The position numbers and the translations under genes are program-made. From Planctomycetota bacterium (GTDB lineage Bacteria > Planctomycetota > Planctomycetia > Pirellulales > Pirellulaceae): DNA of 64,000 nt. The DNA lies in NCBI GenBank assembly GCA_029259935.1, contig JAJDEH010000298.1, forward strand, positions 1-64,000, read 5' to 3'. Below are positions 549 to 45,370 of this stretch, in pieces. The notes under the pieces were generated by a model. It was not told the DNA's origin and did no database searches. It saw nothing but the letters and a program-made list of their open reading frames with translations. Positions within the stretch are counted from its first letter, which is position 1, and the number at the start of each line of letters is the position of its first letter.

Positions 549-3395
549 CTAGACGGATGGTAAGTCTCCCGCTGAGTCGTTTTTTGACGAGGAGACACGC
601 GGAATAGGCGGCAATTTGGACACGTTTTCGCGCCATTCGTCGAGTTGTTCGGGCAGCAGGCTGTTCTCGCGTTTGATTTTGTGCAGAACGTATTTGCCGG
701 TGCCGCGCACCTTGACCCGAACCGTCAACCGGCCATCCTCTTTGTAATGGAAATGAACTTTGATGGGCGTTTCCTTGGGCAGATCAGGCGGTAGGTCTCG
801 CACGGCACACTGGCCTACCTGCGCGCATTCATCGGGTGATTCGCTTTCACCTTCCACGATCTGCACAAAGACGGAATGTTGCCCTTCCTTGTGGGTGTAA
901 AACGTTTGAACGGCGGTGGCGGGCAGGGCCGTGTTGCGGGGTATCAAGACCGCTGTTTGGCGACGCCCGGTCTTGCGGTCCGTGCCGACGATGCCCAAGT
1001 TGTGCGAGTTAACATTGGTAATCGTAAACCTGGGTGCCTTACCCTCTCTCCGCTCTAACAACAGTCCGGCATGCAGCGCGGCGCCATGGGCCACTGCTTC
1101 ATCTGGCGAAACACTTCGGTCCGGGTCTTGTCCCGAAATCTCGGCCAGCATTCTGGTAACCGCCGGCATGCGAGTCGAGCCGCCGACCAACAGTACCTTA
1201 TCAATCTCGCTCCAATTCAATCCCGACACCCTCAGTGTCTGCCGCGCCGTGAATTCGGTCCGCCCCAATAAGTCGGTGGTCATGTCCTCGAATTCATTGC
1301 GTGTCAGCTCCACCAGTGTCGCTAGGCCGCGATAGTCGCAATTGATGGTTGTTTTGTTCCTAACGGACAGGGTCCGCTTGGCATCTTCGCACGAGCGCCA
1401 CAGTCGTCCCAAGGAATTAGGCTCCTCGCGCGGGTCATGCCGATGCTCGGCCATGAACTTTTCCGCCACGAAATCAACTAGCCGGTCGTCCCAGTCGCGG
1501 CCGCCCAGCCGAACATCTCCATCGGTCGCCAGCGCCACGAAGTCTCGGCCGTCCGTTTCCATGACGGTGACATCAAAGGTGCCACCTCCCAAATCGTAGA
1601 CAAGAATACGTTTCTTCTCGCCGCCGTCGGGGTTCAGGAATCCCTTTTGAAAACCGTAGGCGATCGCGGCGGCCGTCGGTTCGTTGATAATGTCCAGCAC
1701 GTCAAAACCCGCGATGTAGCCGGCGTCTTGCGTGGCTTTGCGGCGGGTCTCGTCAAAGTAGGCCGGGACGGTAATCACAACTTTGGTAAAATCGCCCACC
1801 TGCCGCTGGGCGTCTTCTCGCAACTTATTGAGGATCCAGGCTTCCAAGACTTCCGGCGGGAATTGGTGCTTGCCGAAGACTTTATGGAACAGGCGTTGGC
1901 CGAGGTCGCGTTTGGCGCATTCGGCAATCATTGCCATGTCCGTCGCCATGGCCTTGACGGCTTCCTTGCCGACGACGACATCTTCATCGTCAAACAACAG
2001 CACGCTGGGTGTGGTCTTGTCTCCTTCGGCGTTTGCTAACGTCTGAGGCCGGCCGAGGTCATCCAGATAAGCAATCGCTGAATAGGTCGTTCCCAAATCG
2101 ATGCCCACCGCCGTGTGCGTCGGCCGGGACGCTGGTTCTTCGCCAGTGGGCGCGACCGGTACATCCGTGGTGAGCGCCCCGCCTTTTTGCGAATCGAGCG
2201 TAAGTTGCTCGGACGTGACGTTGACCGTCAAGTTGCTTCTTTCTTTGGGACTTTGATCAAATTCACCTTCGCCTAAATCCGCTTTGTCAAACATTCTCGT
2301 GGGCGCGGAACCGTCGACATGGCTTTCGCGGCGAGGGCTGGAGTCGGACAATTCGAAATCGGTTTCCTCCAGGCATTCTTGCAAGTCTTGAATTACCTCG
2401 GCCATCGATTCCTGGCGGTCTTCCGCCTTTTTCGCCACCATTCTTTCGAAAACCGCTTGCAGCTTCGTTGGGACCTCGCCGGAGGAATTGGACAGCGAAG
2501 GAATGGGATCGACACGATGCGCCAACAACTTCCTCACAACGGATCGGCCATCGTAGGGCGAATTTCCCGTCAACAGGCGGTACAAGGTGCAACCAAGACT
2601 GTAGATGTCCGAGCGAAAATCGACATGAGCGGAATCGTCGGCCTGTTCCGGCGACATGTAGTCGACCGTTCCGATGATTTGATTTTCGCGAGTCAGGCCG
2701 TCGTCGCGCGGCGTGTCGGTTTCAAAGTCGGCTTCGAATCGGGCCAGCCCCATGTCAAGAATTTTGACCACACCGGACGAGTCGAGCAGCAAGTTTTCGG
2801 GTTTGATATCGCGGTGAATGATGCCCCGGTCGTGCGCATACTGCAGTCCCCGAGCTGCCTGAAGAATACAGTCCACGGCCTTGTAAACTAGCAGCGGGCC
2901 GTCACGGTTAAGAAGCGTTCCCAGATCCAGGCCGTCAACGTATTCCATTACAAGGAAATAGACGCCATCTTCCTCATCGGCATCAAAGGCGGTGACGATG
3001 TTGGGATGCGAAAGCTGCGCGGCGGCTTCAACCTCGCGCTGAAATCGCTTTAGGTTGTACTCCAGCAGCGTCGCTCCCTCGGGCAAAACCTTGACGACCA
3101 CCGGACGCTTCATCACGCGGTGTTCCGCTCGAAACACCTCGCCCATGCCGCCTTCGCCAATTTTCTCTCGCAGTTCGTTCTTGCCCAGCACCAAGCCCCG
3201 ACTGCGGCCTTCGGCAATGCGCGTGGCCTGAAAGGGAGTCAGCCAACCCTGTTCGGTGACCTCCCGTTGCAAGTCCGCCACGGTCAATTCTTCCATGTCC
3301 CCAGGCAGCCGGTCGCGGAACTCCAGGATCTCCTCCGGCTTCATCAGCCGGCTGTCGACTAGGCCCTGTACGAATTGCTCTTTGGTGACTGCCAT
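549..3395 (-). CDS. Ser/Thr protein kinase fused to an Hsp70 (DnaK-like) chaperone
   Basis: A 948-residue protein with two complete enzymatic modules. Residues 1-70 are a helical N-terminal region. Residues about 75-345 are a Hanks-type kinase: glycine loop GEGGMGEVF at 80-88, catalytic Lys102, HRDIKPEN at 194-201, and DMG in place of DFG at 214-216. A polar linker of about 80 residues follows. From about residue 428 an Hsp70 begins: GIDLGTTYS (431-439), then [21 protein letters not shown] and [10 protein letters not shown] nucleotide-binding motifs. The beta-sandwich substrate domain appears present but the helical lid is largely missing at the C-terminus. No membrane segment is seen, so the protein should be cytosolic. 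The start is ATG, with weak Shine-Dalgarno. A plausible role is stress or folding-state signalling, with the chaperone part recruiting kinase substrates; that is inference. Confidence 0.93.
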
Positions 3396-31064: not shown

Positions 31065-32591
31065 TTACGGACCTTCCAACCGAACGGTCACCTGGTCGGC
31101 CGTTTTGTGGTCCAAAAGGGCTTCGGATCCGTCGGGTAAGATGAATACCCATTGTTTGCCATCCGCTCGGCGGCGACCCGCGGAGATTCTCATGCCAACT
31201 TCTAGAGTCGTTTCGTGGGCCTCGTCGGAGAGCGCGGTGACGGTGGCCTGGTGCCCGTTTCTCAAAAGGCTGGCGTTGATCTCCGTACCGGGCACCAAGT
31301 GGACAATGTCTTCGGGAATCTCCGCGCCATGGGGGTCGGTCAGCGGGTGTCCCAGTTTGTCGTCCAAATAGTCGACGGCCGCTTCGTCGTGCACATGCTC
31401 CAACCGATGCGCCTGTTCATGCAGTTGCTCTTCCGGCATGCCGACATGTTGCAGATAGCTTTCCCACAGCCGATGCGCTCGCATCAGGCGTCGCGCCTCG
31501 CGGCGGCCGTCCGTTGTCAATGCGACTTGGTCGCCCTCAAGTGAAAGGTAGTTCTGCCGTTGAAGCGAACGCAGCGCCCGTTGGATGCGACCCAGCGGAG
31601 CTTGCACATAAGAGACTATCGTGGCCACGGGAACTTGTGGCTGCTTGGCTCTCAGAATGCTGCCCAGCACGTCTTCCACCAGTTGTTGGGGAATCGCTCG
31701 TTGACGTCGCAGCCAGTTGGCGATCAGGCCATATCGCGGCGCGACAACGAGAACCAATGCGAACTGCGCGGTACTGGCCACGACGATCGCCGGTCCTGGT
31801 GACGTGCCGAAAAAACCCGAGAGGAAGTAGCCGATTAAGAAACTCGCCACTCCGAACAAGGCCGACACCACGAGCATGCGGCTTAAGCGATCGCAAACGA
31901 GATAGGCGGTCGCGGCGGGTGTCACCAGCATGCCAACAACCAGAATCACGCCCACGATGTTGACGGCGCTGACCACCACCAAGGAAGTGCAGGCGGTAAG
32001 TAGATAGTCCAACAGTAACACGGGCACGCCAATCGACGCCGCCATCACTGGGTCGAAACTGGTCAGTTGCAGTTGCCGGAACAACAAAACGACAACCGCC
32101 AACACAAATGCAGTAACAAACGCCATCATCCATAATTGCGAATCGTCGACTGCCAAGACGGTGCCCACCACGAAGTGGTAAAGGTCGATGTGGACGCTGT
32201 CGCTAAAGAACGAAACCAACAACGCTCCGACGGCGAAGATTCCGGTATACATCGCGCCAATTGCGGTGTCTTCCTTGATTCGCGAAACCTTGGAAACAAA
32301 CGCGACCATGGCTACCGTGAGAAAACCGGCCAGGATCGATCCGACTAACATGCCCGCCGCGCTGACCGAGACTTCGAAGATCAACTTCATGATCAAGTAG
32401 CCGACGACCACGCCGGCCAGCATCGAGTGGGCGATGGCATCTCCAAGGAAGGCCATTCGTCGCAGAATGATGAAGCAACCGATCACCGCGCAGACGACCG
32501 AGACCAGCAGGCCCGCGATCATCGCTTTGATCAGATACGGGAATTGGCGATGAAAATCAACCAGCGCTTCGTAGATCCCGTCCATCGTCAA
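31065..32591 (-). CDS. Metal ABC permease (ABC-3 family) fused to a DtxR/MntR-type repressor
   Basis: A 508-residue protein. Residues about 1-290 are an ABC-3 (ZnuB/MntB) permease with eight to nine membrane helices and family elements such as RRMAFLGDAIAHSMLAG and VVSAVNIVGVILVVGMLVTPAATA. From about residue 300 a DtxR-like metalloregulator follows: winged helix (about 303-366), then dimer and metal-binding region (RAHRLWESYL, HEQAHRLEHVHDEA, LGHPLTDPHGAEIPED, 371-428) and an SH3-like end (437-505). This is the architecture of chlamydial YtgCR, where the repressor is released by cleavage. The start overlaps the ATPase stop by 4 bases (ATGA), so translation is coupled. I infer Mn2+ or Fe2+ import with built-in autorepression. 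Confidence 0.9.
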   Translation of the reverse strand: MTMDGIYEALVDFHRQFPYLIKAMIAGLLVSVVCAVIGCFIILRRMAFLGDAIAHSMLAGVVVGYLIMKLIFEVSVSAAGMLVGSILAGFLTVAMVAFVSKVSRIKEDTAIGAMYTGIFAVGALLVSFFSDSVHIDLYHFVVGTVLAVDDSQLWMMAFVTAFVLAVVVLLFRQLQLTSFDPVMAASIGVPVLLLDYLLTACTSLVVVSAVNIVGVILVVGMLVTPAATAYLVCDRLSRMLVVSALFGVASFLIGYFLSGFFGTSPGPAIVVASTAQFALVLVVAPRYGLIANWLRRQRAIPQQLVEDVLGSILRAKQPQVPVATIVSYVQAPLGRIQRALRSLQRQNYLSLEGDQVALTTDGRREARRLMRAHRLWESYLQHVGMPEEQLHEQAHRLEHVHDEAAVDYLDDKLGHPLTDPHGAEIPEDIVHLVPGTEINASLLRNGHQATVTALSDEAHETTLEVGMRISAGRRRADGKQWVFILPDGSEALLDHKTADQVTVRLEGP

Positions 32592-37552: not shown

Positions 37553-38365
37553 CTACCTACTAAACTTGGTCTGGCCGCAACCGTAGGTAGAACACGCGCC
37601 ATAATACTCCCAACAATCCCCGTGATGCGGCGTTTTACAATTGCGGCATGTGACCAGGTCGGACGTGATCGAATCGCCGCAGATTTGGCAGATCATCTCG
37701 TTGATCACGAGCGGTTGGGATTGGTCGAGGAACTCAATGCCGTCGGCTTGAGTCGCCATCGCATGTTCGTAGAGTTCCAATCCCCGCTGGGTAAATCGTT
37801 TCAACTCCTCGTATTCGTGTAGCACACCCTGCACTTTCACCTGCAGTCTGCCGTTGCTCCACAAGACGTACAGATCGCGAACCGGCGACACCTCCCGCAA
37901 TCGATTAATGGCCTGCTGCACTTGTAGGCTGAGCAGGTTTCGGACCAGCGCCTGCGAGCCGCCACGAATGATGTATTCGTCGTCGAAGTGCTGGTGGCCG
38001 ATCTCGATATCCTGAGTGCCGAACAATTTGCCCAGGCGACGAAACAGCCGCTCGGGAAATATCTCGCACAGCAACCGGTCGTCAGGCCAAGTTATATGCA
38101 TGCGCGTAAAATAGCGGCGATAATCGCCACCCGTGGACTGCAAATCGACCAAAACCTCAACGCCATCTTGCACGAATCGCGCCGAGGGACCGCGCGTATC
38201 AAAAACTCCGCTGCTGCGATGAAAAGTGCCGTCAAGATCGTTGGCCAGTCGGCGAAATCCTGCATTCAAATTCAAATGTCGCGACCAGACAGTCCACAAC
38301 GAAACCCCGATCAGACCGACCGCGATGATGAGAATGATTGCGAAAACGGACCCGGGATTTGTCAC
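37553..38365 (-). CDS. Membrane-anchored protein with C-terminal RING-like zinc module (candidate E3)
   Basis: A 270-residue protein from a GTG start. One membrane helix at residues about 7-27, then a soluble domain (about 40-220) that shares the pattern MHI-x-WPD-x-RL and a following long helix with the paralogue at 38884. The C-terminus carries eight candidate zinc ligands in RING-like order: Cys226 and 229, Cys240 and 243, His247/248 and Cys251, Cys258 and 263. This spacing fits prokaryotic RING/treble-clef families described in planctomycetes. RINGs in eukaryotes present the E2-modifier thioester to substrates, so in this operon it is a candidate E3 placed at the membrane. It is the last gene of the cluster. 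Confidence 0.82.
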   Translation of the reverse strand: MTNPGSVFAIILIIAVGLIGVSLWTVWSRHLNLNAGFRRLANDLDGTFHRSSGVFDTRGPSARFVQDGVEVLVDLQSTGGDYRRYFTRMHITWPDDRLLCEIFPERLFRRLGKLFGTQDIEIGHQHFDDEYIIRGGSQALVRNLLSLQVQQAINRLREVSPVRDLYVLWSNGRLQVKVQGVLHEYEELKRFTQRGLELYEHAMATQADGIEFLDQSQPLVINEMICQICGDSITSDLVTCRNCKTPHHGDCWEYYGACSTYGCGQTKFSR

Positions 38366-38414
38366 CGTGAGTAGCCCCTACGAAAAGTACCGCCCAAGCA
38401 AGGACGTCCCAGCG

Positions 38415-38753
38415 TCAAATTACATAGAAAAAAATGATCCATATCATTATGGGGAAAGGTATCCAAAGAAAGGTTGCACACAACAGGCCCACCAACGCAC
38501 ACTCTTGCCGAAAGGGGAGTTGCAAATTGGAGAAGCCCCATGCCAGTACGATAACGAGCATCGTAAAGAACGGCGCAATCGAAGCGAACAAGAAGCAGCC
38601 ATGCACGGTCAACTCCGGACCAAGGAAATTGGTCAACTGACAAAGGTAATGGACCACAGCGAACAGCACACAACAAAACAAGATTGCCCAATTGAGCTTC
38701 TTGAACGAATACTGCCATCGTCGCTGTTGGGGATGGTGCTGCGATGTGGACAT
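38415..38753 (-). CDS. Small polytopic membrane protein inside the ubiquitin-like operon
   Basis: A 112-residue protein with a short polar N-terminus and three or four hydrophobic segments (AILFCCVLFAVVHYLC, CFLFASIAPFFTMLVIVLAW, ALVGLLCATFLW, PIMIWIIFFYVI). No family recognised. It lies between the two RING-like genes in the same direction, with gaps of 130 and 49 bases. A longer frame on another reading covers the area but lacks family sequence. Its position suggests a membrane partner for the RING-like proteins; evidence for function is only positional. Confidence 0.55.
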   Translation of the reverse strand: MSTSQHHPQQRRWQYSFKKLNWAILFCCVLFAVVHYLCQLTNFLGPELTVHGCFLFASIAPFFTMLVIVLAWGFSNLQLPFRQECALVGLLCATFLWIPFPIMIWIIFFYVI

Positions 38754-38883
38754 GACCTATAGGAGGCCAAGGCCTCAAACCCAATTCAAACGATCTTGTA
38801 GGTGGACTCCGCTGAGGCCAGATCAATGCGTCTTCGGCCTCTTCTAGAGTCCTTCCTCATGCCTTGCAATCGACGATCAAAAA

Positions 38884-39705
38884 TCAAGAGTCACCCGCCG
38901 GACCCGCAAGTTTGGGAACGACAAACCGCTGCTCCTGGCAGCCGTACACCGCGCAGCAACCGTAGTATTGCCAACAGTCCATGTGATGCGGCGTCTTGCA
39001 GCGGCGACAGAAAATCATGTCCGTGGTGATGTCGTCGCCGCAGATCTGACATGTTGCCGCGGAGATTACCTGCACCGTCTCGTCTTCCACGAACGAGATG
39101 CCAACCATCCGTGTGAGCATCGCCTGATCGTATAGCTCGAGCGAAAGCTGGGTGAATTCTTCTAATTCCGCAAATCGGCGAATGTAGGTCGGCTTCTTGA
39201 TCAGGATGCGGCCACGATGAATTGCGAAGTAGGCGTCGGGTATTCCCAAAAGATGACGCAACCGATCGATTTGCCAGCGCACGCCATCGCTGAGAAAAAT
39301 CAAGGCCGTATCCTCATGATTGGCGCGGATGGTGTAGGTTTTGTCAAAATCGGCGTCGCCTGAATCCATTTCGTGCATTCCGCGAAACGTTCGCGTGTTG
39401 GCGAATTGCCGTTGAGGGAACACCTCCAGGCGCAGCCGAGAATCGGGCCAATTGATGTGCATTTGGGTGAATTGCCCACCACCGCCCGCGTTGTAGGTGT
39501 TGAGCAGCACGCTTGTCGCCCCGTATTGGAAACGCACGCTCGGGTGACTGAGCCACCCCGCGGGCAGGCATACGCCCCCATAGCGCTGAGCCAGCGCCTG
39601 ATACGACTTGTTCCAGTTATCGGCGCGAGCTTGTGCCTTCGAAGCGAACGCCACCAACACGATGACGACCACCACAAGTACACCAAAGGCCAGAAAACAT
39701 TCCAC
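38884..39705 (-). CDS. Second membrane-anchored RING-like protein (candidate E3)
   Basis: Start chosen at the GTG at 39703-39705 because AAGGA stands 6 bases before it and the protein then begins directly with a membrane helix, as its paralogue does; a GTG at 39789 overlapping the upstream stop would add 28 residues. About 273 residues. The soluble domain has QMHINWPDSRLRLEVFPQR, matching the paralogue at 37553. The C-terminal module reads CQIC, then FCRRC, then HHMDCW and CCAVYGC, again a two-site RING-like arrangement, here with an extra Cys. The tail after it is short. Two paralogous, membrane-placed RING-like proteins imply either two target sets or a heterodimeric ligase, as inference. 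Confidence 0.82.
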   Translation of the reverse strand: MECFLAFGVLVVVVIVLVAFASKAQARADNWNKSYQALAQRYGGVCLPAGWLSHPSVRFQYGATSVLLNTYNAGGGGQFTQMHINWPDSRLRLEVFPQRQFANTRTFRGMHEMDSGDADFDKTYTIRANHEDTALIFLSDGVRWQIDRLRHLLGIPDAYFAIHRGRILIKKPTYIRRFAELEEFTQLSLELYDQAMLTRMVGISFVEDETVQVISAATCQICGDDITTDMIFCRRCKTPHHMDCWQYYGCCAVYGCQEQRFVVPKLAGPAGDS

Positions 39706-39788
39706 AGGAATTCCTTGGGAGAAACGACTATATTTGATCCCCAACCGCGGCTTGCGGCGAGGCTCATTTCCCCATTTTGCCGAATTCA

Positions 39789-40484
39789 CTACCCAATGTA
39801 CAGAATATCGTCGTCTTCATCGGGCTGGACCCGCCGGGGCGGAACTCGACGAGGCGGCAGACTGCCCCGGCCCTCGGCCGACTGGGGAATCGGTGTGTCT
39901 TCACCGATGTAGAACACGCCAGCATCTTCTTTGCCCGCAGGCAGGTTGATTTCCGTCTCGCCGCGCCGCTCGTACCGAATGACGTTGGACTTCGCGGGAG
40001 CCGATTTATCCCGCAACGGGCGGTGGTCCAGCGGCAGCCGTAGCGTATTTTCTTCCTCGAACCAATTTTTTGCCGTGTAATTCACCGCTTTGTCTTCGGT
40101 GACGTGGGCCATCCGCGCCAGATCCCACAATCGTTCGACGACCACATCCAAGGTGATGTCCTTTTCCCAGGGCAGGCCAATTTGCTTCAGGTTGATAAAG
40201 CCGCTGAACGAGATATTGGGGTGAAAAATCGGCGTCAGCCAACGAATGTCGGGACCCCGCTCGGGGTACGAATAGGGCAAGCGAATGTCGCAGCGGTGCA
40301 ATTCGATGATTTCGACTTCCTCGCCGGAGCTGCCGCGCGCCACTCCTTTGCCACGAAAGGTGACGGTATATCGTTCTGGCGGCTCGCCGGTGGTCTCGAA
40401 ATCGAACAGCGTGCTGGCCGCTTTTAGGGCTTGGATCGCTTCAAAGTCGGACTTTAACCGGTCCTGTCGATTTGGCTGAACCAC
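39789..40484 (-). CDS. Catalytically dead E2 (UEV-like) ubiquitin-conjugating-fold protein
   Basis: A 231-residue protein from a GTG. It is paralogous to the active E2 at 44377: an N-terminal helix block (QDRLKSDFEAIQALK), the strand YTVTFRGKG, then TPIFHPNISFSGFINL with the HPN tripeptide at 88-90. The residue at the catalytic Cys position is Asn98, so it cannot form a thioester. This is the situation of eukaryotic UEV proteins, which pair with an active E2 to orient the modifier. The protein continues with a basic/proline linker and ends DEDDDILYIG, closely resembling the C-terminal tail EDPDILFIE of the active E2. Stop codon overlaps the frame of the next gene by one base. Confidence 0.88.
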   Translation of the reverse strand: MVQPNRQDRLKSDFEAIQALKAASTLFDFETTGEPPERYTVTFRGKGVARGSSGEEVEIIELHRCDIRLPYSYPERGPDIRWLTPIFHPNISFSGFINLKQIGLPWEKDITLDVVVERLWDLARMAHVTEDKAVNYTAKNWFEEENTLRLPLDHRPLRDKSAPAKSNVIRYERRGETEINLPAGKEDAGVFYIGEDTPIPQSAEGRGSLPPRRVPPRRVQPDEDDDILYIG

Positions 40485-40585
40485 AATTGGATCCTCAATG
40501 TTTCAAGATTCACGGCAAACAGCCGTCGTTGGACCACGGCGGAAGGGCATCCCCATTTGGGTGGGATTCATTGGAGTCCACGCCG

Positions 40586-41998
40586 CTACTCCGAGTTGTT
40601 ATTCGTCTTGTCGTCACTTTCCTCGGAAGAATCTTTGTAATCTTCTTCCTCTTCTTCGTCCTCTTCCTTTCTCATGGCCACCGCGGCACCGATGCCGACT
40701 AGCGCCAGCACGACGACAATGACACCAACCGTGATATAGGCTAACCAGCTTTGCTCTTTGGGGGCGGTCTCCGAACCCTTCTTATCAGAGCCTATTCCTA
40801 GCTTTTCCTCCAGTTTTGCAATCTCGGTTTTTTTTGCTGTTAGGTCCTCTTTAGTTTTTCCTAAGTTCTTCTCAGCCGTCTTCCGCTTGTCTTCTTCCGT
40901 CTCGAAACGGTTCTGGAGCGTTTTCTTTTCCTGCTTCAAATCCGCAACTTGACTTTTGAGATCCATGGTGACCGCATTATGGCCCGCGTTGGCCGCCTTT
41001 GACTCACGCAGTTGTCCCTTGAGATCCTCAAAAGCATCGACTAGTCCGGGGCCTCCTTTCATTTCGGATGCAATACTTCGCAGCATCTCTCGCTGTGCGG
41101 ACAGCCGCGTTTCGTTGTAGTCGTCTCTCGTCAAAGCCTTGATCGACCGTTCCAGTTCGGCGATCTGCTTATTTTGCTTTTCGATCTCGGTCTGGTCTTC
41201 CGGCTTGGGAGCGATCAGTTGCCATGCAATGAGGCAGATCACCATGAACTGCATCGTCAGCATGCCCATAATCACCGGCCCTTGCCAAGGGTTTCTTGGC
41301 TCGGCAATGTTGACCACCGGAGGAGCGGACGGCCCGACTTGTCCCGCAATGAATCTAGGATCGGATGACATGGTTAGCTTGCCTTCGAGTTGACAGGTAA
41401 AGATTTCGAGTTCGTGGCGACGAAACCGAGACGCGATAAAGTAAAATCCGCCGGTCCGCCGAATACGTTGCTGCGGGTCACCGGTCCACATAAACATGCC
41501 CCGATCACGGCGGCAAGGGTCGATGACCAGCGCCAAATCGAGCGGCCGGTTGAAAAAATTGTCGCAGATGAACATGTCCATCCCAGACAGAAATACGCCC
41601 CAATCGGGATGCGTGTGATACCAACCGACCATCTGCAAGTCTTCGGGAAACTCGTCGCGCTCGCGCGAAATTTGTTCCCATGTATCATGAGTAAATTTGA
41701 AGCTGCCCTTGGTGGCCTCGTAATGTTGCGCACGTAGGCTGTCGGTGACGACCACGAACGGATGGCCGTCTTCATCCTCATATTGCCCGCCCAACAACAC
41801 CCCGCCCAATTCGACGCTAGTATCTTCCAATGCATGCGCCTCCATGTCGCGCATGACATCGAGATCCACGAAAATCGGTAAGTCTTCTTCGCGCGGCGCA
41901 GCATGGGGAACCACCGCATAATGCTTGTTTCGGTCCGGACGCAAATGGACCTCGGGACGAGCTTCCTCGACATCGCCGAATTGAATGTCTGCGTCCAT
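40586..41998 (-). CDS. Membrane-anchored JAMM isopeptidase with coiled-coil region
   Basis: A 470-residue protein. Residues about 40-200 form a JAB/MPN domain with the complete JAMM metal motif: Glu63 (VELGGVLLGG), His128 and His130, Ser138 and Asp141 in WYHTHPDWGVFLSGMD. This is the zinc site of deubiquitinases such as Rpn11 and AMSH and cleaves isopeptide bonds. A first membrane helix lies at about 241-263, a heptad-rich coiled coil at about 267-400 (with Lys/Glu runs), a second membrane helix at about 418-441, and a strongly acidic tail ends the protein (EEDEEEEED). The second JAMM gene of the operon encodes only the soluble enzyme, so this one may act as a membrane-bound remover or sensor of the modifier. 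Confidence 0.9.
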   Translation of the reverse strand: MDADIQFGDVEEARPEVHLRPDRNKHYAVVPHAAPREEDLPIFVDLDVMRDMEAHALEDTSVELGGVLLGGQYEDEDGHPFVVVTDSLRAQHYEATKGSFKFTHDTWEQISRERDEFPEDLQMVGWYHTHPDWGVFLSGMDMFICDNFFNRPLDLALVIDPCRRDRGMFMWTGDPQQRIRRTGGFYFIASRFRRHELEIFTCQLEGKLTMSSDPRFIAGQVGPSAPPVVNIAEPRNPWQGPVIMGMLTMQFMVICLIAWQLIAPKPEDQTEIEKQNKQIAELERSIKALTRDDYNETRLSAQREMLRSIASEMKGGPGLVDAFEDLKGQLRESKAANAGHNAVTMDLKSQVADLKQEKKTLQNRFETEEDKRKTAEKNLGKTKEDLTAKKTEIAKLEEKLGIGSDKKGSETAPKEQSWLAYITVGVIVVVLALVGIGAAVAMRKEEDEEEEEDYKDSSEESDDKTNNNSE

Positions 41999-42001
41999 TA
42001 A

Positions 42002-42568
42002 CTAACCAACCCGCTCGAGGCCCACGGCGGCATCTGGGTACTCTTTTAACAACTGGCGGTACGTTTCGACATGAGCCATTAGATTCTTGAGTACGGACGA
42101 ACGGCGAAGGTTGCCGACCGAAACGCGGCACCTGGGACAAAGCGTGATCGGCACCTTCAACACCGAGTCGCGGCCGTGGAGCTCCCCGGCGTCCCTCGAT
42201 TGGACAAAAATCCACATCCACAGTGGTGCAAACAAGAGCATGGGCAACAAACTCCAGACACTCGGTCCGCGGTTGCGGACCCACCGCCGTTCCAGTTCCA
42301 CGATACACACCACGGTGTCCTTGGTCGGCGACGAGCATTCGACGCAGATTTCCGTGGGTAACTCGCCGTTGGATATTTTCTTCAAGACCATCTCAGCGGC
42401 GTTCGTGACGAACGTGTCTTGCCCCGCGGATCGCTTCAATGCCGTTAGACGCGGAACATCGTTCACGTTTCCACAGCGACACTTCGCCTGGGTTCCGGCC
42501 ATCGTCGCCGATACCCCGATTCGCGCTCCGCATTCACAATCGATGTGGAATTCCACCTGCAAACCCAA
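42002..42568 (-). CDS. Zinc-ribbon membrane protein of the ubiquitin-like operon
   Basis: A 188-residue protein, 3 bases upstream of the membrane JAMM gene and 14 downstream of the E1-like gene, so clearly in the operon. Residues 11-32 form a Cys pair set (C11-x-C13 and C30-x-C32) that matches a zinc ribbon. A second set (Cys75, Cys78 ... Cys144, Cys147) brackets a membrane helix (about 106-122), so the halves of that ribbon flank the membrane or the helix is a hairpin. No enzyme motif. The N-terminal ribbon resembles the one at the C-terminus of the E1-like protein (Cys307/309/329/332), which may let them interact. Function not recognised. Confidence 0.75.
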   Translation of the reverse strand: MGLQVEFHIDCECGARIGVSATMAGTQAKCRCGNVNDVPRLTALKRSAGQDTFVTNAAEMVLKKISNGELPTEICVECSSPTKDTVVCIVELERRWVRNRGPSVWSLLPMLLFAPLWMWIFVQSRDAGELHGRDSVLKVPITLCPRCRVSVGNLRRSSVLKNLMAHVETYRQLLKEYPDAAVGLERVG

Positions 42569-42582
42569 TGTGTCCCGGTGAC

Positions 42583-43749
42583 TTAGAACTCAAAATTTGA
42601 GCGATCCGCCGCCAACTGAAAAAAGTGTTCATCCGAATCGCTCGCCACTCTGACAGTATCGTACGGGGGAACGCCAAGCGCGGCCAACTTTTCTTTCGCC
42701 AAATCCGAGTCGGCGGCAACGACATGTTCTATATTTGGACGCGCCGTTTCGCCGCACTGGGGGCACTTGGCGTCCGCCATGCCCACCAGTTGAGCAGGTT
42801 TCATGACGGATTCGCTACGACCGCATTGGCAGTCGAGCGAGACGATCAGATCGCGATCGAGCGCGAGCTTGAGCGGTGAGTCGTTTGGGAAGTGTTCACG
42901 GGCGAGATTGAACAAATCTTGGGCCGTGTTCTCTTGAGACGAAAGCGGCAGGTCGATCGCTTCGGGATACGTCTCGTGACTTAAACAATCTTCCTTGTGT
43001 GGATAATTCGTACTATAGAATTTGTTCGCGACGCCGTTGTAAACCAGGGCGGCTCCGGCGGCCACGTCCATGCCGTGAATTAGTTTCAGGGCTTCTTGGG
43101 TTTGCAATCCGCCGATCATCGACGCAATCGTGGGAGCCGTCGGCACCTTGCCAGCCAAAATATCTTCGTGTCGCAGCAGCGGGCAACTGTAGCGCAAGTT
43201 GATCAGCCGGTAGTCGTTTTCGGTCATCGCGCATTCATAGCACGCGCCGTCGGGCGGGACGAAAACCTTGGCCACGCCATTGATCTCTTGAATGCCGCCG
43301 TCGATCCAGGGCGTGGTCACTTTCCAGCAACACCGATTGACCCACAACCGCGCCTCGCGATTGTCCAGGCAGCCAATCACGACGTTGACATCGCGAAACA
43401 ACCCCAGCCCGACATCCGTGATAATGTTGGCGTCCATCGGGTGGACACGCGTGTCGGGGTTAAGATCATGGATCGCCTCGGCGGCAACTTCGGCCTTCGA
43501 CCGGCCTCGATCTCGCTGACGAAAAAGCACACTGCGGGTCAGGTTGGAATCTTCGATCTTGTCGAAATCGACGACGTAAACCTGGCCCACGCCAAGCAGC
43601 GCCAAGTTTTTGAGTACTTCGTTTCCCAGCGCGCCCGCGCCCACGACCAGAATTTTGGCTGCCGCCAACTTCTCCTGATCCCACCAAGCAATAAGACGAA
43701 GACGCGAATACCGATCGTCGTCGTCGATGACCAGAGGTTCGTCCGACAT
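42583..43749 (-). CDS. E1-like ubiquitin-activating (ThiF/MoeB fold) enzyme with C-terminal zinc ribbon
   Basis: A 388-residue protein. Nucleotide-binding Rossmann motif VVGAGALGNEV (36-46), acidic strand end YVVDFDKIEDSNLTRS with the Arg72 finger, then RGRSKAEVAAEAI and CLDNREAR typical of E1 and ThiF. CYEC at 170-173 sits where MoeB/ThiF have zinc ligands, and Cys189 in RYSCPLLRHED is a candidate catalytic Cys; TAPTIASMIGGLQTQEALKLI ends the adenylation domain, as in E1s. A C-terminal extension (about 290-388) has a zinc ribbon (Cys307, 309, 329, 332) and a helical tail. It should adenylate the C-terminal Gly of the ubiquitin-like protein and pass it to the E2. Clear in family, inferred in substrate. 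Confidence 0.92.
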   Translation of the reverse strand: MSDEPLVIDDDDRYSRLRLIAWWDQEKLAAAKILVVGAGALGNEVLKNLALLGVGQVYVVDFDKIEDSNLTRSVLFRQRDRGRSKAEVAAEAIHDLNPDTRVHPMDANIITDVGLGLFRDVNVVIGCLDNREARLWVNRCCWKVTTPWIDGGIQEINGVAKVFVPPDGACYECAMTENDYRLINLRYSCPLLRHEDILAGKVPTAPTIASMIGGLQTQEALKLIHGMDVAAGAALVYNGVANKFYSTNYPHKEDCLSHETYPEAIDLPLSSQENTAQDLFNLAREHFPNDSPLKLALDRDLIVSLDCQCGRSESVMKPAQLVGMADAKCPQCGETARPNIEHVVAADSDLAKEKLAALGVPPYDTVRVASDSDEHFFQLAADRSNFEF

Positions 43750-43766
43750 GAACTTTTTACTTTGAG

Positions 43767-44300
43767 CTACGCACTCGGCTTTTCAAACATGAAGAAAAAG
43801 CCACAGTCAACGACGTCGTTTTGGTGCCACTGAAAGAAGCCAAATTCCTTCGCCTTGGGATCGACAACCAAGGCGACATGCCACGGCGCGCTGAAATAGT
43901 TGCGGTGAATGAACAAATCATAAGCAGATAAGAATACACCAAATCCAGGGTGTGTGTGGTGCCATCCGACCACTTTATCGTCGGGAAATTGCTCTTCGAC
44001 CTGTCGATTCAGCTCAGACCACGTATCGTGCGTGAATGTTAGCGACGCGGCGCGAGACAAGGTATCGGTGGCGGGAAGGAAGTTGCGGATTTCCACATAC
44101 TCACGATCGGCTTCGTACGGTCCGCCAATCAGAAAGCCGCCGATCTCGCGTTTGGTATCCTGGTGCGAAAACTCGATAATTTCTTCAAAAACCGGTTCGT
44201 GAAACAGAATCGGCAGCGCTTCATCATGGATTTGCCCCAAGCGTCGCAGTGCGGTGTTGCCGCGATTCAGGGAAGCCGAATTGGGAATCGATGACGTCAT
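43767..44300 (-). CDS. Soluble JAMM/MPN metalloprotease (deubiquitinase-like)
   Basis: A 177-residue protein that is essentially a single JAB domain, close to the minimal length for the family. The JAMM metal site is complete: Glu52 (REIGGFLIGG), His115 and His117, Ser125 and Asp128 in WHHTHPGFGVFLSAYD. The fold is shared with the membrane JAMM at 40586, including LTFTHDTW/FKFTHDTW before the catalytic loop. No signal or membrane segment. It precedes the E1-like gene by 17 bases and follows the E2 gene. The probable reaction is removal of the ubiquitin-like protein from targets or processing of its precursor; since the modifier already ends in Gly, deconjugation is more likely. Confidence 0.92.
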   Translation of the reverse strand: MTSSIPNSASLNRGNTALRRLGQIHDEALPILFHEPVFEEIIEFSHQDTKREIGGFLIGGPYEADREYVEIRNFLPATDTLSRAASLTFTHDTWSELNRQVEEQFPDDKVVGWHHTHPGFGVFLSAYDLFIHRNYFSAPWHVALVVDPKAKEFGFFQWHQNDVVDCGFFFMFEKPSA

Positions 44301-44376
44301 CGGATCAATCTTGATTCATTTCGCAAATGAATGATGAGGGCCTGAAGGATGATGGCCGAATTTAAAGTCGCGACGC

Positions 44377-45030
44377 TTACTCGATAAACAATATGTCCGG
44401 ATCTTCCGGTCGTACGCCAACGGAAGCCTCAACAATCTCGGCTTCCACGATTTCCGGATCCAGGAAGGTCACGTCGGCCACATCGCCAAGCTTGGGAGCA
44501 GACGCAATCGGCGGTTTTCGATCCGCGAATTCCGGTGCCAAACCCGCCACGCGGTCGCGCATTGGACGATCGTCGATCGGCAATCTGAAGTCTGTCTGAG
44601 ATTTGGCCCAGGCGGCGGCCTCTCGATTGTACGGACTCTCGACATCAAAATTTTGATACCGAATCATGTCCCACAGCATGTGGCACAATTCGTCGAGATT
44701 GACGCTGGGCACCCAATAGGTTCCATAACCGCCCAGACAGACCACGCCGCTGGCCGATATGTTGGGATGGAATATGGGAGTCTTCCAGGCCAGTTCAGGT
44801 TGCATGCGCGGATAAGAAGCGCTCAAATCAACCTGGACGGTGTGCTGGTCCCGAACCAGCACATCATTGGTTTTGTCCGGCCGCCAAAAGCCGCGGCCTT
44901 GAAAGTGAAGCAAGTAGGACTCGGGCGGATTGCCATCGGCGACAAAATCGAGCACGCTGCTTTCGGCGCGAAGTTGCGAAATAGCCTTGTAATCAGATCG
45001 CAGCCGACGAAGCCGTGGCGATTCGCGCAT
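44377..45030 (-). CDS. Active E2 ubiquitin-conjugating-fold enzyme
   Basis: About 217 residues from the ATG at 45028-45030 (a TTG at 45033 is directly adjacent), with AAGGGAAGG upstream. It is a recognisable UBC fold: N-terminal helix SDYKAISQLRAE, strand SYLLHFQGRG, YPRMQPELAWKTPIFHPN (HPN 89-91 counting from 45033), then the active-site segment GVVCLGG with Cys99, and WVPSVNLDELCHMLWDMI with the Trp-x-Pro found after the catalytic Cys in eukaryotic E2s. This is unusually close to eukaryotic E2s for a bacterial protein. After the fold there is a Pro/Ala-rich linker and the tail EDPDILFIE, shared with the dead E2 at 39789. It receives the modifier from the E1-like protein by transthiolation, by family inference. 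Confidence 0.92.
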   Translation of the reverse strand: MRESPRLRRLRSDYKAISQLRAESSVLDFVADGNPPESYLLHFQGRGFWRPDKTNDVLVRDQHTVQVDLSASYPRMQPELAWKTPIFHPNISASGVVCLGGYGTYWVPSVNLDELCHMLWDMIRYQNFDVESPYNREAAAWAKSQTDFRLPIDDRPMRDRVAGLAPEFADRKPPIASAPKLGDVADVTFLDPEIVEAEIVEASVGVRPEDPDILFIE

Positions 45031-45088
45031 CAAACATCCTTCCCTTGCTAGAGCCGCATGGTGAATGGTCTCATCGAGAAAACCGGTT

Positions 45089-45370
45089 TCAACCGGCGAC
45101 GATCTCGGGGTAGACGATCAAATGATCGCCGTCCTTAACCTCGGCCTGCATAAGTGTTTGATCCTCGCGGAGACGCTTGCCGCCCTCTTTATGGTCAAGA
45201 CTGTAGCTCATTGGCTGACCGTCGGGACCCATGACGGGCAGGTTCATCTTCGTGATGATATTGGGCAAGATCCGCTTCACGCTTACGCTGTCGGCAATCA
45301 CCGCGTCCACCGATTTGGCACCGGTTTGGTCCAAAAAGGTGACACGTGTTCCTTGGCGTTCTTCTGCCAT
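45089..45370 (-). CDS. Ubiquitin-like modifier protein, first gene of the conjugation operon
   Basis: Start set at the ATG at 45368-45370 with GGAG 9 bases upstream; the frame opens at 45418 but those 16 residues look untranslated. About 93 residues. It has the ubiquitin/YukD-like beta-grasp pattern: TRVTFLDQTGAKSVDAVIA as first hairpin, a helix (VKRILPNIITKMNL), a GQPMSYSLDHKEGGKRLRED loop-strand, then DQTLMQAEVKDGDHLIVYPE. The last residues are PEIVAG, so the chain ends in a single exposed Gly and would need no processing for activation. YukD relatives in type VII secretion do not carry such an end and do not neighbour E1/E2. Here the adjacent E2, JAMM, and E1 genes point to a conjugated modifier. 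Confidence 0.87.
   Translation of the reverse strand: MAEERQGTRVTFLDQTGAKSVDAVIADSVSVKRILPNIITKMNLPVMGPDGQPMSYSLDHKEGGKRLREDQTLMQAEVKDGDHLIVYPEIVAG

Follow-up and report, generated by a model that had tools for sequence, protein, structure and literature searches.

Identification of the locus and its genes

We analyzed a 64,000-nt stretch of a contig from a Planctomycetota bacterium (JAJDEH010000298.1, positions 1 to 64,000; assembly GCA_029259935.1), referred to here as the window, in which a gene cluster resembling a ubiquitin-type conjugation system runs on the minus strand from 45370 to 37553 (all coordinates are positions in the window). It consists of a run of open reading frames (ORFs) with intergenic gaps of 3–130 bp, given a start of RING1 at 39705. 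A Pfam scan of the 10 operon proteins identified a ubiquitin-like protein (Ubl), an active-type E2, a soluble JAMM protein (JAMM1), an E1-like enzyme, a membrane JAMM protein (JAMM2), an E2-like protein without the catalytic cysteine (pseudo-E2) and two RING-type membrane proteins (RING1 and RING2), in addition to two ORFs with no Pfam family (Table 1). An initial annotation, made from the sequence alone, had described these ORFs as a same-strand series with short gaps, and all of them were found at the positions given there on the minus strand. The Pfam matches bore out the identities it gave to the Ubl, E2, JAMM, E1, membrane JAMM, second E2 and the two RING-like proteins. Its reading of the E2 was likewise correct, with both the HPN motif and Cys99 present, as was that of the second E2 as dead, the catalytic cysteine being absent. 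JAMM2 and the RING proteins carry predicted transmembrane (TM) segments, in agreement with the membrane anchoring predicted earlier, and the gene set, with Ubl, E1, E2, pseudo-E2, RING-type proteins and two JAMMs, is indeed richer than that of the E1/E2/JAB defence loci.

The Ubl gene starts with the ATG at 45370, preceded by GGAG, and its last codons, for Val-Ala-Gly, are followed directly by the stop. For RING1, the most likely start is the GTG at 39705, with AAGGA upstream, and not 39789, since several relatives begin with ME at the same place.

Scanning genome contigs with the single E2 sequence gave no relatives, but a profile scan of the same contigs with an E2 alignment (A1) gave 96, and 80 loci were kept (L001–L080). 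Nearly all are planctomycete by their record titles; L034 belongs to Abditibacteriales, and L005 and L007 are titled simply as bacterium. Family models gave Ubl-E2-(JAMM1)-E1-JAMM2-(pseudo-E2)-RING as the prevailing gene order. Because the same set and order recur in most of the 80 loci, the cluster is no chance grouping. In the group containing Singulisphaera, the RING gene is placed upstream. The order seemed disturbed or split in five loci (L042, L064, L068, L072 and L078), since long overlapping or broken frames were scored there.

On the other hand, the zinc-ribbon ORF and the small TM ORF, which had been counted among the components of the system, gave no phmmer match in the 80 loci. They are therefore local extras, and the small one is perhaps no gene. 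The gap between E1 and JAMM2 is at most 298 bp in all measured loci except L069 (763 bp), L072 lying outside the measurement; as this gap is too short elsewhere, L069 excepted, the zinc-ribbon ORF is a local insertion. A reading of its product as a LITAF-like membrane ribbon was dropped, the gene being absent from the relatives.

Table 1 Genes and features of the locus, with their positions in the window
Feature	Position	Strand	Basis and remarks
Ubl modifier, 93 aa	45089..45370	-	YukD family PF08817 1.6e-16; ends ...LIVYPEIVAG
Ubl C-terminal Val-Ala-Gly, predicted conjugation end	45092..45100	-	motif conservation
Active-type E2, 218 aa	44377..45033	-	UQ_con PF00179 6.5e-13; HPN 89-91, Cys99
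E2 SIM-like C-terminal peptide DPDILFIE	44380..44403	-	pattern match in relatives
JAMM1, soluble JAMM	43767..44300	-	JAB PF01398 4.9e-10; H115-T-H117...S125...D128
E1-like enzyme, 388 aa	42583..43749	-	ThiF PF00899 2.4e-56
Zinc-ribbon ORF, one TM	42002..42568	-	no Pfam family; local insertion, outside the conserved set
JAMM2, membrane JAMM	40586..41998	-	JAB PF01398 2.7e-9; N-terminal JAMM, two predicted TM flanking a coiled coil
Pseudo-E2, 231 aa	39789..40484	-	UQ_con PF00179 1.8e-9; HPN present, catalytic Cys absent; tail end DEDDDILYIG
RING1, RING-type membrane protein	38884..39705 (ORF extends to 39789)	-	Prok-RING_1 PF14446 7.3e-8; GTG start
Small hydrophobic TM ORF	38415..38753	-	no Pfam family; not conserved
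RING2, RING-type membrane protein	37553..38365	-	Prok-RING_1 PF14446 1.3e-10

The modifier and its C-terminal end

The Ubl matched PF08817 with 61.3 bits (cut-off of 27). Of the 80 loci, 75 have a stand-alone Ubl and 3 a Ubl-E2 fusion; in the remaining 2, where the E2 is at a contig edge, no Ubl was seen. All 75 stand-alone Ubls reach the motif Y[P/A]E[I/V/M]VAG; 44 stop at VAG, while the other 31 continue with unrelated tails of 1–21 residues. A protein search with the Ubl gave 1064 matches, with one from Lignipirellula cremea (as EsaB/YukD) among the best 120 listed. The motif was present in all of these 120, and 42 had tails of 1–43 residues, which depend on the gene ends as predicted by the source records. 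In L028, L035 and L040, which form one clade, the Ubl lies in frame at the N-terminus of the E2 with VAG preserved at the junction, an arrangement resembling a ubiquitin fusion precursor. By analogy, a conserved VAG followed by unrelated tails is the pattern of ubiquitin-like precursors.

The Ubl was also the slowest-evolving part of the locus and the RING the most divergent. In the 21 loci with all parts, mean identity was 0.85 for Ubl, 0.64 for E1, 0.55 for both E2 and JAMM1, 0.45 for JAMM2, 0.41 for pseudo-E2 and 0.31 for RING; in the 55 loci with the core, it was 0.76 for Ubl, 0.58 for E1, 0.53 for E2, 0.37 for JAMM2 and 0.27 for RING.

The match to PF08817, together with the EsaB/YukD label that some sources give to the relatives, could suggest that the protein acts non-covalently within a type VII secretion-like machine, with the enzymes next to it being incidental. 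This is highly improbable, as Pfam detected no type VII genes in the proteins scanned (10 of the operon and 9 flanking it), and as 78 of the 80 loci have the Ubl together with E1, E2 or JAMM, the E2 being at a contig end in the other two.

E1 and the active E2

The catalytic cysteine was found in the E2 of all 80 loci and HPN in 79 (75 E2s by strict pattern and the remaining five by eye). Cys99 of the window E2 aligns with a cysteine of UBE2L3 which we take to be its catalytic one. The E2 thus has the PF00179 domain, the HPN motif and the cysteine of an active UBC-type E2.

The E1 alignment (A3) had 70 rows, the window protein and 69 of the 81 E1 matches. C189 is invariant in it and is a candidate thioester cysteine, whereas the likewise invariant C170, C173, C255 and H258 are a candidate zinc site; a C-terminal ribbon is formed by C307, C309, C329 and C332. 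No recognisable relative of the C-terminal domain was found among solved structures; a UFD-like role is a candidate one. When the A3 profile was used, UBA7, UBA1, UBA6, UBA3 and UBA2 ranked above ThiF and MoeB. E1 and E2 are separate genes and no CD-NTase was found among the 10 operon proteins, unlike cyclic oligonucleotide-based antiphage signaling systems (CBASS) of the type with an E1-E2 fusion (Cap2), a JAB protein (Cap3) and a CD-NTase.

Since ThiF and MoeB models do match the E1 domain, and JAMMs are known in sulfur pathways, we considered a sulfur-carrier pathway in which a metabolite would receive sulfur from E1 and Ubl, with trimming by the JAMM. It is very improbable: the ThiF/MoeB scores are far under the curated cut-offs (TIGR02356, 140.6 bits versus 275), eukaryotic E1s outscore them, and the Ubl ends in AG rather than in the GG of ThiS/MoaD. 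Such a pathway would also have no role for the RING proteins or for a UBC-type E2 that keeps its cysteine in 80 of 80 loci.

SIM-like tails of the E2s

The E2 ends with a hydrophobic peptide flanked by acidic residues (DPDILFIE in the window), which follows a poorly alignable linker. We refer to it as SIM-like, for its presumed likeness to SUMO-interacting motifs (SIMs). A strict pattern for the last six residues was present in 73 of the 80 E2s, and the other seven appeared by eye to be variants. Shuffling of the 60-residue tails in 1000 rounds gave a mean of 0.96 and a maximum of 5. An E2 protein search gave 1355 matches at E ≤ 1e-3, and the pattern was present in 110 of the best 120 listed, the window's own included; nine of the remaining ten had IIE, ILE or MFLE variants and one had a different end. 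As these counts come from related sequences, they are not independent events. The pattern was absent from 75 Ubl, 28 JAMM1, 81 E1, 74 JAMM2 and 72 RING ORFs, and by eye none of the printed tails of the distant planctomycete E2s of L096–L116 had a SIM-like peptide. We infer that the SIM-like tails may bind the Ubl.

Among the more distant planctomycete E2s, several of L107–L116 have a C-terminal zinc-ribbon-like segment (e.g. RVRCKKC) in place of the SIM-like tail, and in L115 and L116 no cysteine is visible at the active-site place.

The pseudo-E2 and the two JAMM proteins

The catalytic cysteine was absent in all 25 pseudo-E2 relatives, and HPN was present in 22 of the 25 (by eye). Accordingly, the pseudo-E2 is a UBC-family protein whose missing cysteine is conserved as such throughout its relatives, as in ubiquitin E2 variants (UEVs). 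In a quick tree with long branches, built from 51 of the 80 E2s, 25 pseudo-E2s, both window proteins and 21 distant E2s, the pseudo-E2s formed one group (support of 72; E2 side, 92).

The H-x-H...S-x-x-D motif was present in 28 of 28 JAMM1 proteins. It was found in strict form in 68 of 74 JAMM2 proteins; three more have HSHP and three are truncated or split. The nearest solved chain to a 26-row JAMM1 profile was 6fjv (Rpn11-like), followed by Rpn11, AMSH and CSN5, which are isopeptidases. Hydropathy predicted two TM segments in 60 of the 69 long JAMM2 relatives and one in 9.

To follow JAMM1 and pseudo-E2 together we used an E1 tree of 81 rows, including the window, 62 of which were callable for the pair. 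Both genes were found in 25, JAMM1 alone in one (L036), pseudo-E2 alone in one (L011) and neither in 35. The L036 genome does carry a pseudo-E2, next to a RING gene but on a different contig, so the counts become 26, 0, 1 and 35, respectively. On the best E1 tree, the state of pseudo-E2 changes 7 times (4 of them forced by well-supported branches) and that of JAMM1 8 times. Hence pseudo-E2 and the soluble JAMM mostly co-occur, apparently as an accessory pair. By analogy with UEV proteins and K63-directed JAMMs, the pair may be a chain-building plus chain-editing module.

The RING proteins

In an alignment (A2) of both window RING proteins and 61 of the 72 RING ORFs, every one of the 63 rows has the seven cysteines and C-x-[IV]-C, and all but one have His268. 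The RING pattern of eight ligands, with a hydrophobic residue before the second cysteine, is present; PHD fingers share this ligand pattern. RING genes were detected in 58 of the 80 loci, many of the remaining loci being on short contigs, and number 1–3 per locus. Four matches in L002 that looked like four RING genes were fragments of fewer genes. When 22 genomes were searched with the RING alignment, 35 RING matches (32 strong) were obtained; a RING gene lies apart from the E1 in two genomes (L036 and L053), and the three weak matches are at other places.

For topology we examined 67 of the 72 ORFs, the five weaker ones being left out, and 63 of the 67 have an N-terminal TM segment. The net charge after it averaged +2.38; 56 of these 63 have a positive value, 4 are neutral and 3 negative, so the RING domain is predicted to lie inside the cell. 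A periplasmic RING1, as a long N-terminus would have implied, is disfavoured by the GTG start and the charge pattern of the whole family.

The membrane JAMM and the RING proteins would place attachment and removal at the membrane. Together with the single terminal Gly of the Ubl, this would also be consistent with a modifier that is attached to a membrane lipid and not to protein, like ATG8 in autophagy. We regard this as improbable, since the E2s are UBC-type (PF00179) with HPN and not of the ATG3/ATG10 type, and since the nearest solved relatives of JAMM1 (Rpn11, AMSH and CSN5) are isopeptidases.

Proposed function

Covalent conjugation of the Ubl is predicted and very likely, and the locus probably encodes a system for Ubl conjugation and deconjugation at the inner membrane, in which E1, E2, pseudo-E2, JAMMs and membrane RING proteins would attach the modifier to proteins and remove it. 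Where a tail is present, a JAMM would trim the Ubl precursor to its VAG end. The E1 would then adenylate the C-terminal Gly and load the Ubl on Cys189, from which it would pass to Cys99 of the E2. The cytosol-facing RING domains of the membrane proteins may bring the charged E2 to membrane targets, the SIM-like tails of E2 and pseudo-E2 may hold the Ubl non-covalently, and JAMM2 would reverse the tagging. Most simply, the pseudo-E2 would be a UEV-like subunit directing Ubl-on-Ubl chains, which the soluble JAMM would edit.

Several observations weigh against this interpretation. The Ubl ends in AG, not GG, and 44 of 75 Ubls already terminate in Gly. Tails were found in 11 of 27 Ubls from loci with JAMM1 and in 20 of 48 from loci that lack it. 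Any trimming therefore cannot depend on JAMM1 by itself, and its candidacy as a dedicated precursor protease was dropped. Moreover, YukD of Gram-positive bacteria is reported as unconjugated in a passage of Iyer 2006 (PMC1779556). The lead of E1 over ThiF is modest (UBA3 125.9 versus ThiF 115.8 bits, for single stretches). The closest solved chains to the RING family are zinc domains of plant cellulose synthases (5e-4), which are not known as E3s. With such nearest relatives, E3 activity is the weakest assignment, and the RING proteins are putative E3s. The SIM-like pattern was found in just 17 of 25 pseudo-E2s. Finally, L011 has a pseudo-E2 without JAMM1, with no JAMM1 elsewhere in its genome, and the link between the two genes comes down to 3 supported independent pairs with a median p of 0.25. 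In this phylogenetic pair test, which preceded the correction for L036, on average 2.7 pairs differed the same way, 0.0 the opposite way and 0.3 did not differ; with three supported pairs, the test was unable to reach significance.

Perhaps the system has two tiers at the inner membrane, with chains of the near-invariant Ubl built via the pseudo-E2, editing by the co-inherited JAMM1, SIM-type reading and fast-diverging RING ligases, and serves in membrane-protein quality control; we put this forward as a tentative proposal, less likely to be right than wrong. Modifier chains, UEV control and SIM-like reading are generally regarded as eukaryotic. If the predicted cascade works, the cell biology of a bacterial lineage makes use of a ubiquitin system whose parts list is usually called eukaryotic, a pseudo-E2, paired deconjugases and membrane ligases among them. 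The origin of chain control and of SIM-type reading of modifiers would then become testable in cultured planctomycetes, as the locus or its Ubl relative is carried by Singulisphaera acidiphila (L052) and L. cremea, respectively. It would also open the question of what bacteria tag outside phage fights.

Distribution and genomic setting

In the order of S. acidiphila, an E2 match was present in 38 of 45 genomes (37 strong). In the order of the L005 genome, which is probably also that of the window, 2 of 43 genomes had a match, and a larger search gave 29 of 296 (13 strong). For the phylum, the corresponding numbers were 11 of 59 (three strong) and 35 of 393. As the larger searches were limited to scoring 7–10 candidates per genome, the smaller repeats, with most candidates scored, give the preferred figures. 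The locus is thus close to fixation in the Singulisphaera order but patchy in that of L005, and the patchiness points to repeated loss or transfer. No relative was found in viral contigs scanned with one E2 and with A1, nor in phage records searched with the E2. Among plasmids, the E2 matched a single distant E2, from Crinalium, with 26.8% identity.

A divergent upstream neighbour family with no Pfam match lies near the operon in 36 of the 80 loci; its members have about 240–260 residues (e.g. L009:6683-7411). Other neighbours were GNAT (22 loci), NUDIX (19), GlnD (18), transglutaminase (18) and PII proteins (17), the last being identified by reading their sequence. The neighbour families are partly antisense shadow ORFs, and only the named ones were used. 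None of 43 neighbour families of the relatives matched the window. The genes flanking the window locus encode a zinc-uptake ABC system, a histidine kinase with FHA and GAF domains and a peptide ABC transporter. Of ten flanking proteins scanned with PADLOC, a kinase about 34 kb away strongly matched PD-T4-6 (4.3e-94); there were also matches for ABC ATPases and one weak dGTPase match, and six proteins had no match.

A Bil/Bub-like role in antiphage defence, in which the same enzymology would put the modifier on phage structural proteins and so on foreign targets, is unlikely here. In its favour, a 2025 review states that bacterial pathways combining a Ubl with E1, E2 and a protease act mainly against phages (PMC12687455). 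The low occurrence in one order, with 2 of 43 genomes, and the PD-T4-6 match 34 kb off, although to a common kinase domain, also fit defence. Against defence, PADLOC matched only E1-E2, JAB, BilC and BilD types for the E1 and the JAMMs, plus weak coiled-coil matches, and nothing for the Ubl, the E2s or the RING proteins. A strong match in 37 of 45 genomes of the Singulisphaera order was judged unusual for a defence cassette, and the upstream neighbour family shared by 36 of 80 loci, with GlnD, PII, NUDIX and GNAT genes as other frequent neighbours, also speaks against it. Defence had been the setting implied by the initial annotation; with no relatives in viral contigs or phage records, a single distant plasmid E2 and strong flanking PADLOC matches limited to the kinase and ABC ATPase, this part was not upheld. 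Conjugation at the inner membrane remains the reading we prefer.

Some further genes were observed in the window and in the relatives. The 948-residue kinase at 549-3395 (minus strand) combines Ser/Thr kinase and HSP70 domains (PF00069 3.8e-49, PF00012 1.8e-119). The ABC-3 metal permease encoded at 31065-32591 (minus strand) has an iron-dependent-repressor dimerisation domain at its C-terminus (PF00950, PF02742), a transporter/metal-sensor fusion adjoining ZnuA- and ATPase-type genes. A CAAX-protease-type M48 membrane peptidase adjoins or overlaps the operon span in 14 loci (e.g. L058:13508-14959). A second type of planctomycete operon, distant from the first, is present in L098, L099 and L106. 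It has E1, Ubl, E2 and JAB genes, and its Ubl ends in ...STFVAG, with or without a short tail.

Comparison with known systems

Eukaryotic UEVs (MMS2/UBE2V) have the UBC fold, lack the catalytic cysteine and stand beside an active E2. The pseudo-E2 of the window is likewise a UBC-fold protein without the catalytic cysteine beside an active E2. It differs in that HPN is kept in 22 of 25 relatives and that most have a SIM-like tail. Pairing with the active E2 and control of linkage are putative roles here, co-occurrence being what was observed.

In Iyer 2006, YukD is tied to ESAT-6 export and not to E1/E2 (PMC1779556). The operon types 6a–6e given there share E1, E2 and JAB with the window, and type 6d also a Ubl, but in 6d the E2 is without the classical histidine and a RING is not listed (PMC1779556). 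The Bil and Bub operons are described as validated in the 2025 review, and resemble the window in having a bacterial Ubl, E1, E2 and protease in one operon (PMC12687455). In contrast, the Ubl and E2s of the window had no PADLOC match, and the window has RING proteins and a pseudo-E2. BilA and BilB were not matched by PADLOC, which gave only BilC (7.8e-4) and BilD (1.7e-9), and the window family had no phage relatives in the searched collections, with one distant plasmid E2.

The operon of Caldiarchaeum subterraneum also has Ubl, E1, E2, RING and an Rpn11-type JAMM together, and is described as a full E1/E2/RING cascade whose JAMM both matures and deconjugates, cutting a nine-residue propeptide off the pro-ubiquitin (PMC5654768). 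Its RING is small, it has one E2 and its modifier has a di-glycine end (PMC5654768). In the window locus, by contrast, the modifier ends in AG, a pseudo-E2 is added, there are two JAMMs, and TM segments are predicted to anchor RING and JAMM proteins.

The window locus very probably belongs to the operon family that Burroughs, Iyer and Aravind reportedly predicted in 2011, with YukD-type Ubl, E1, E2, JAB and RING genes. Arcas and colleagues are said to have worked in silico on planctomycete E2s in 2013. The Burroughs-type operons are reported to have a YukD-like Ubl beside E1, E2 and JAB, plus a prokaryotic RING. In the window, the Ubl lies next to E1, E2 and JAB, and PF14446 is found twice. 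The suspicion in the initial annotation that such loci were already known is supported by a passage of a 2014 review, which cites Burroughs 2011 for related operons in Actinobacteria, Planctomycetes and Acidobacteria (PMC4197634). Searches of open-access papers, with subscription papers outside their scope, turned up no experimental work on the planctomycete system. The family is known in silico, and the comparative evidence added here concerns the slow evolution and the tails of the Ubl, the SIM-like ends, the JAMM1/pseudo-E2 pair and the divergence of the RING proteins.

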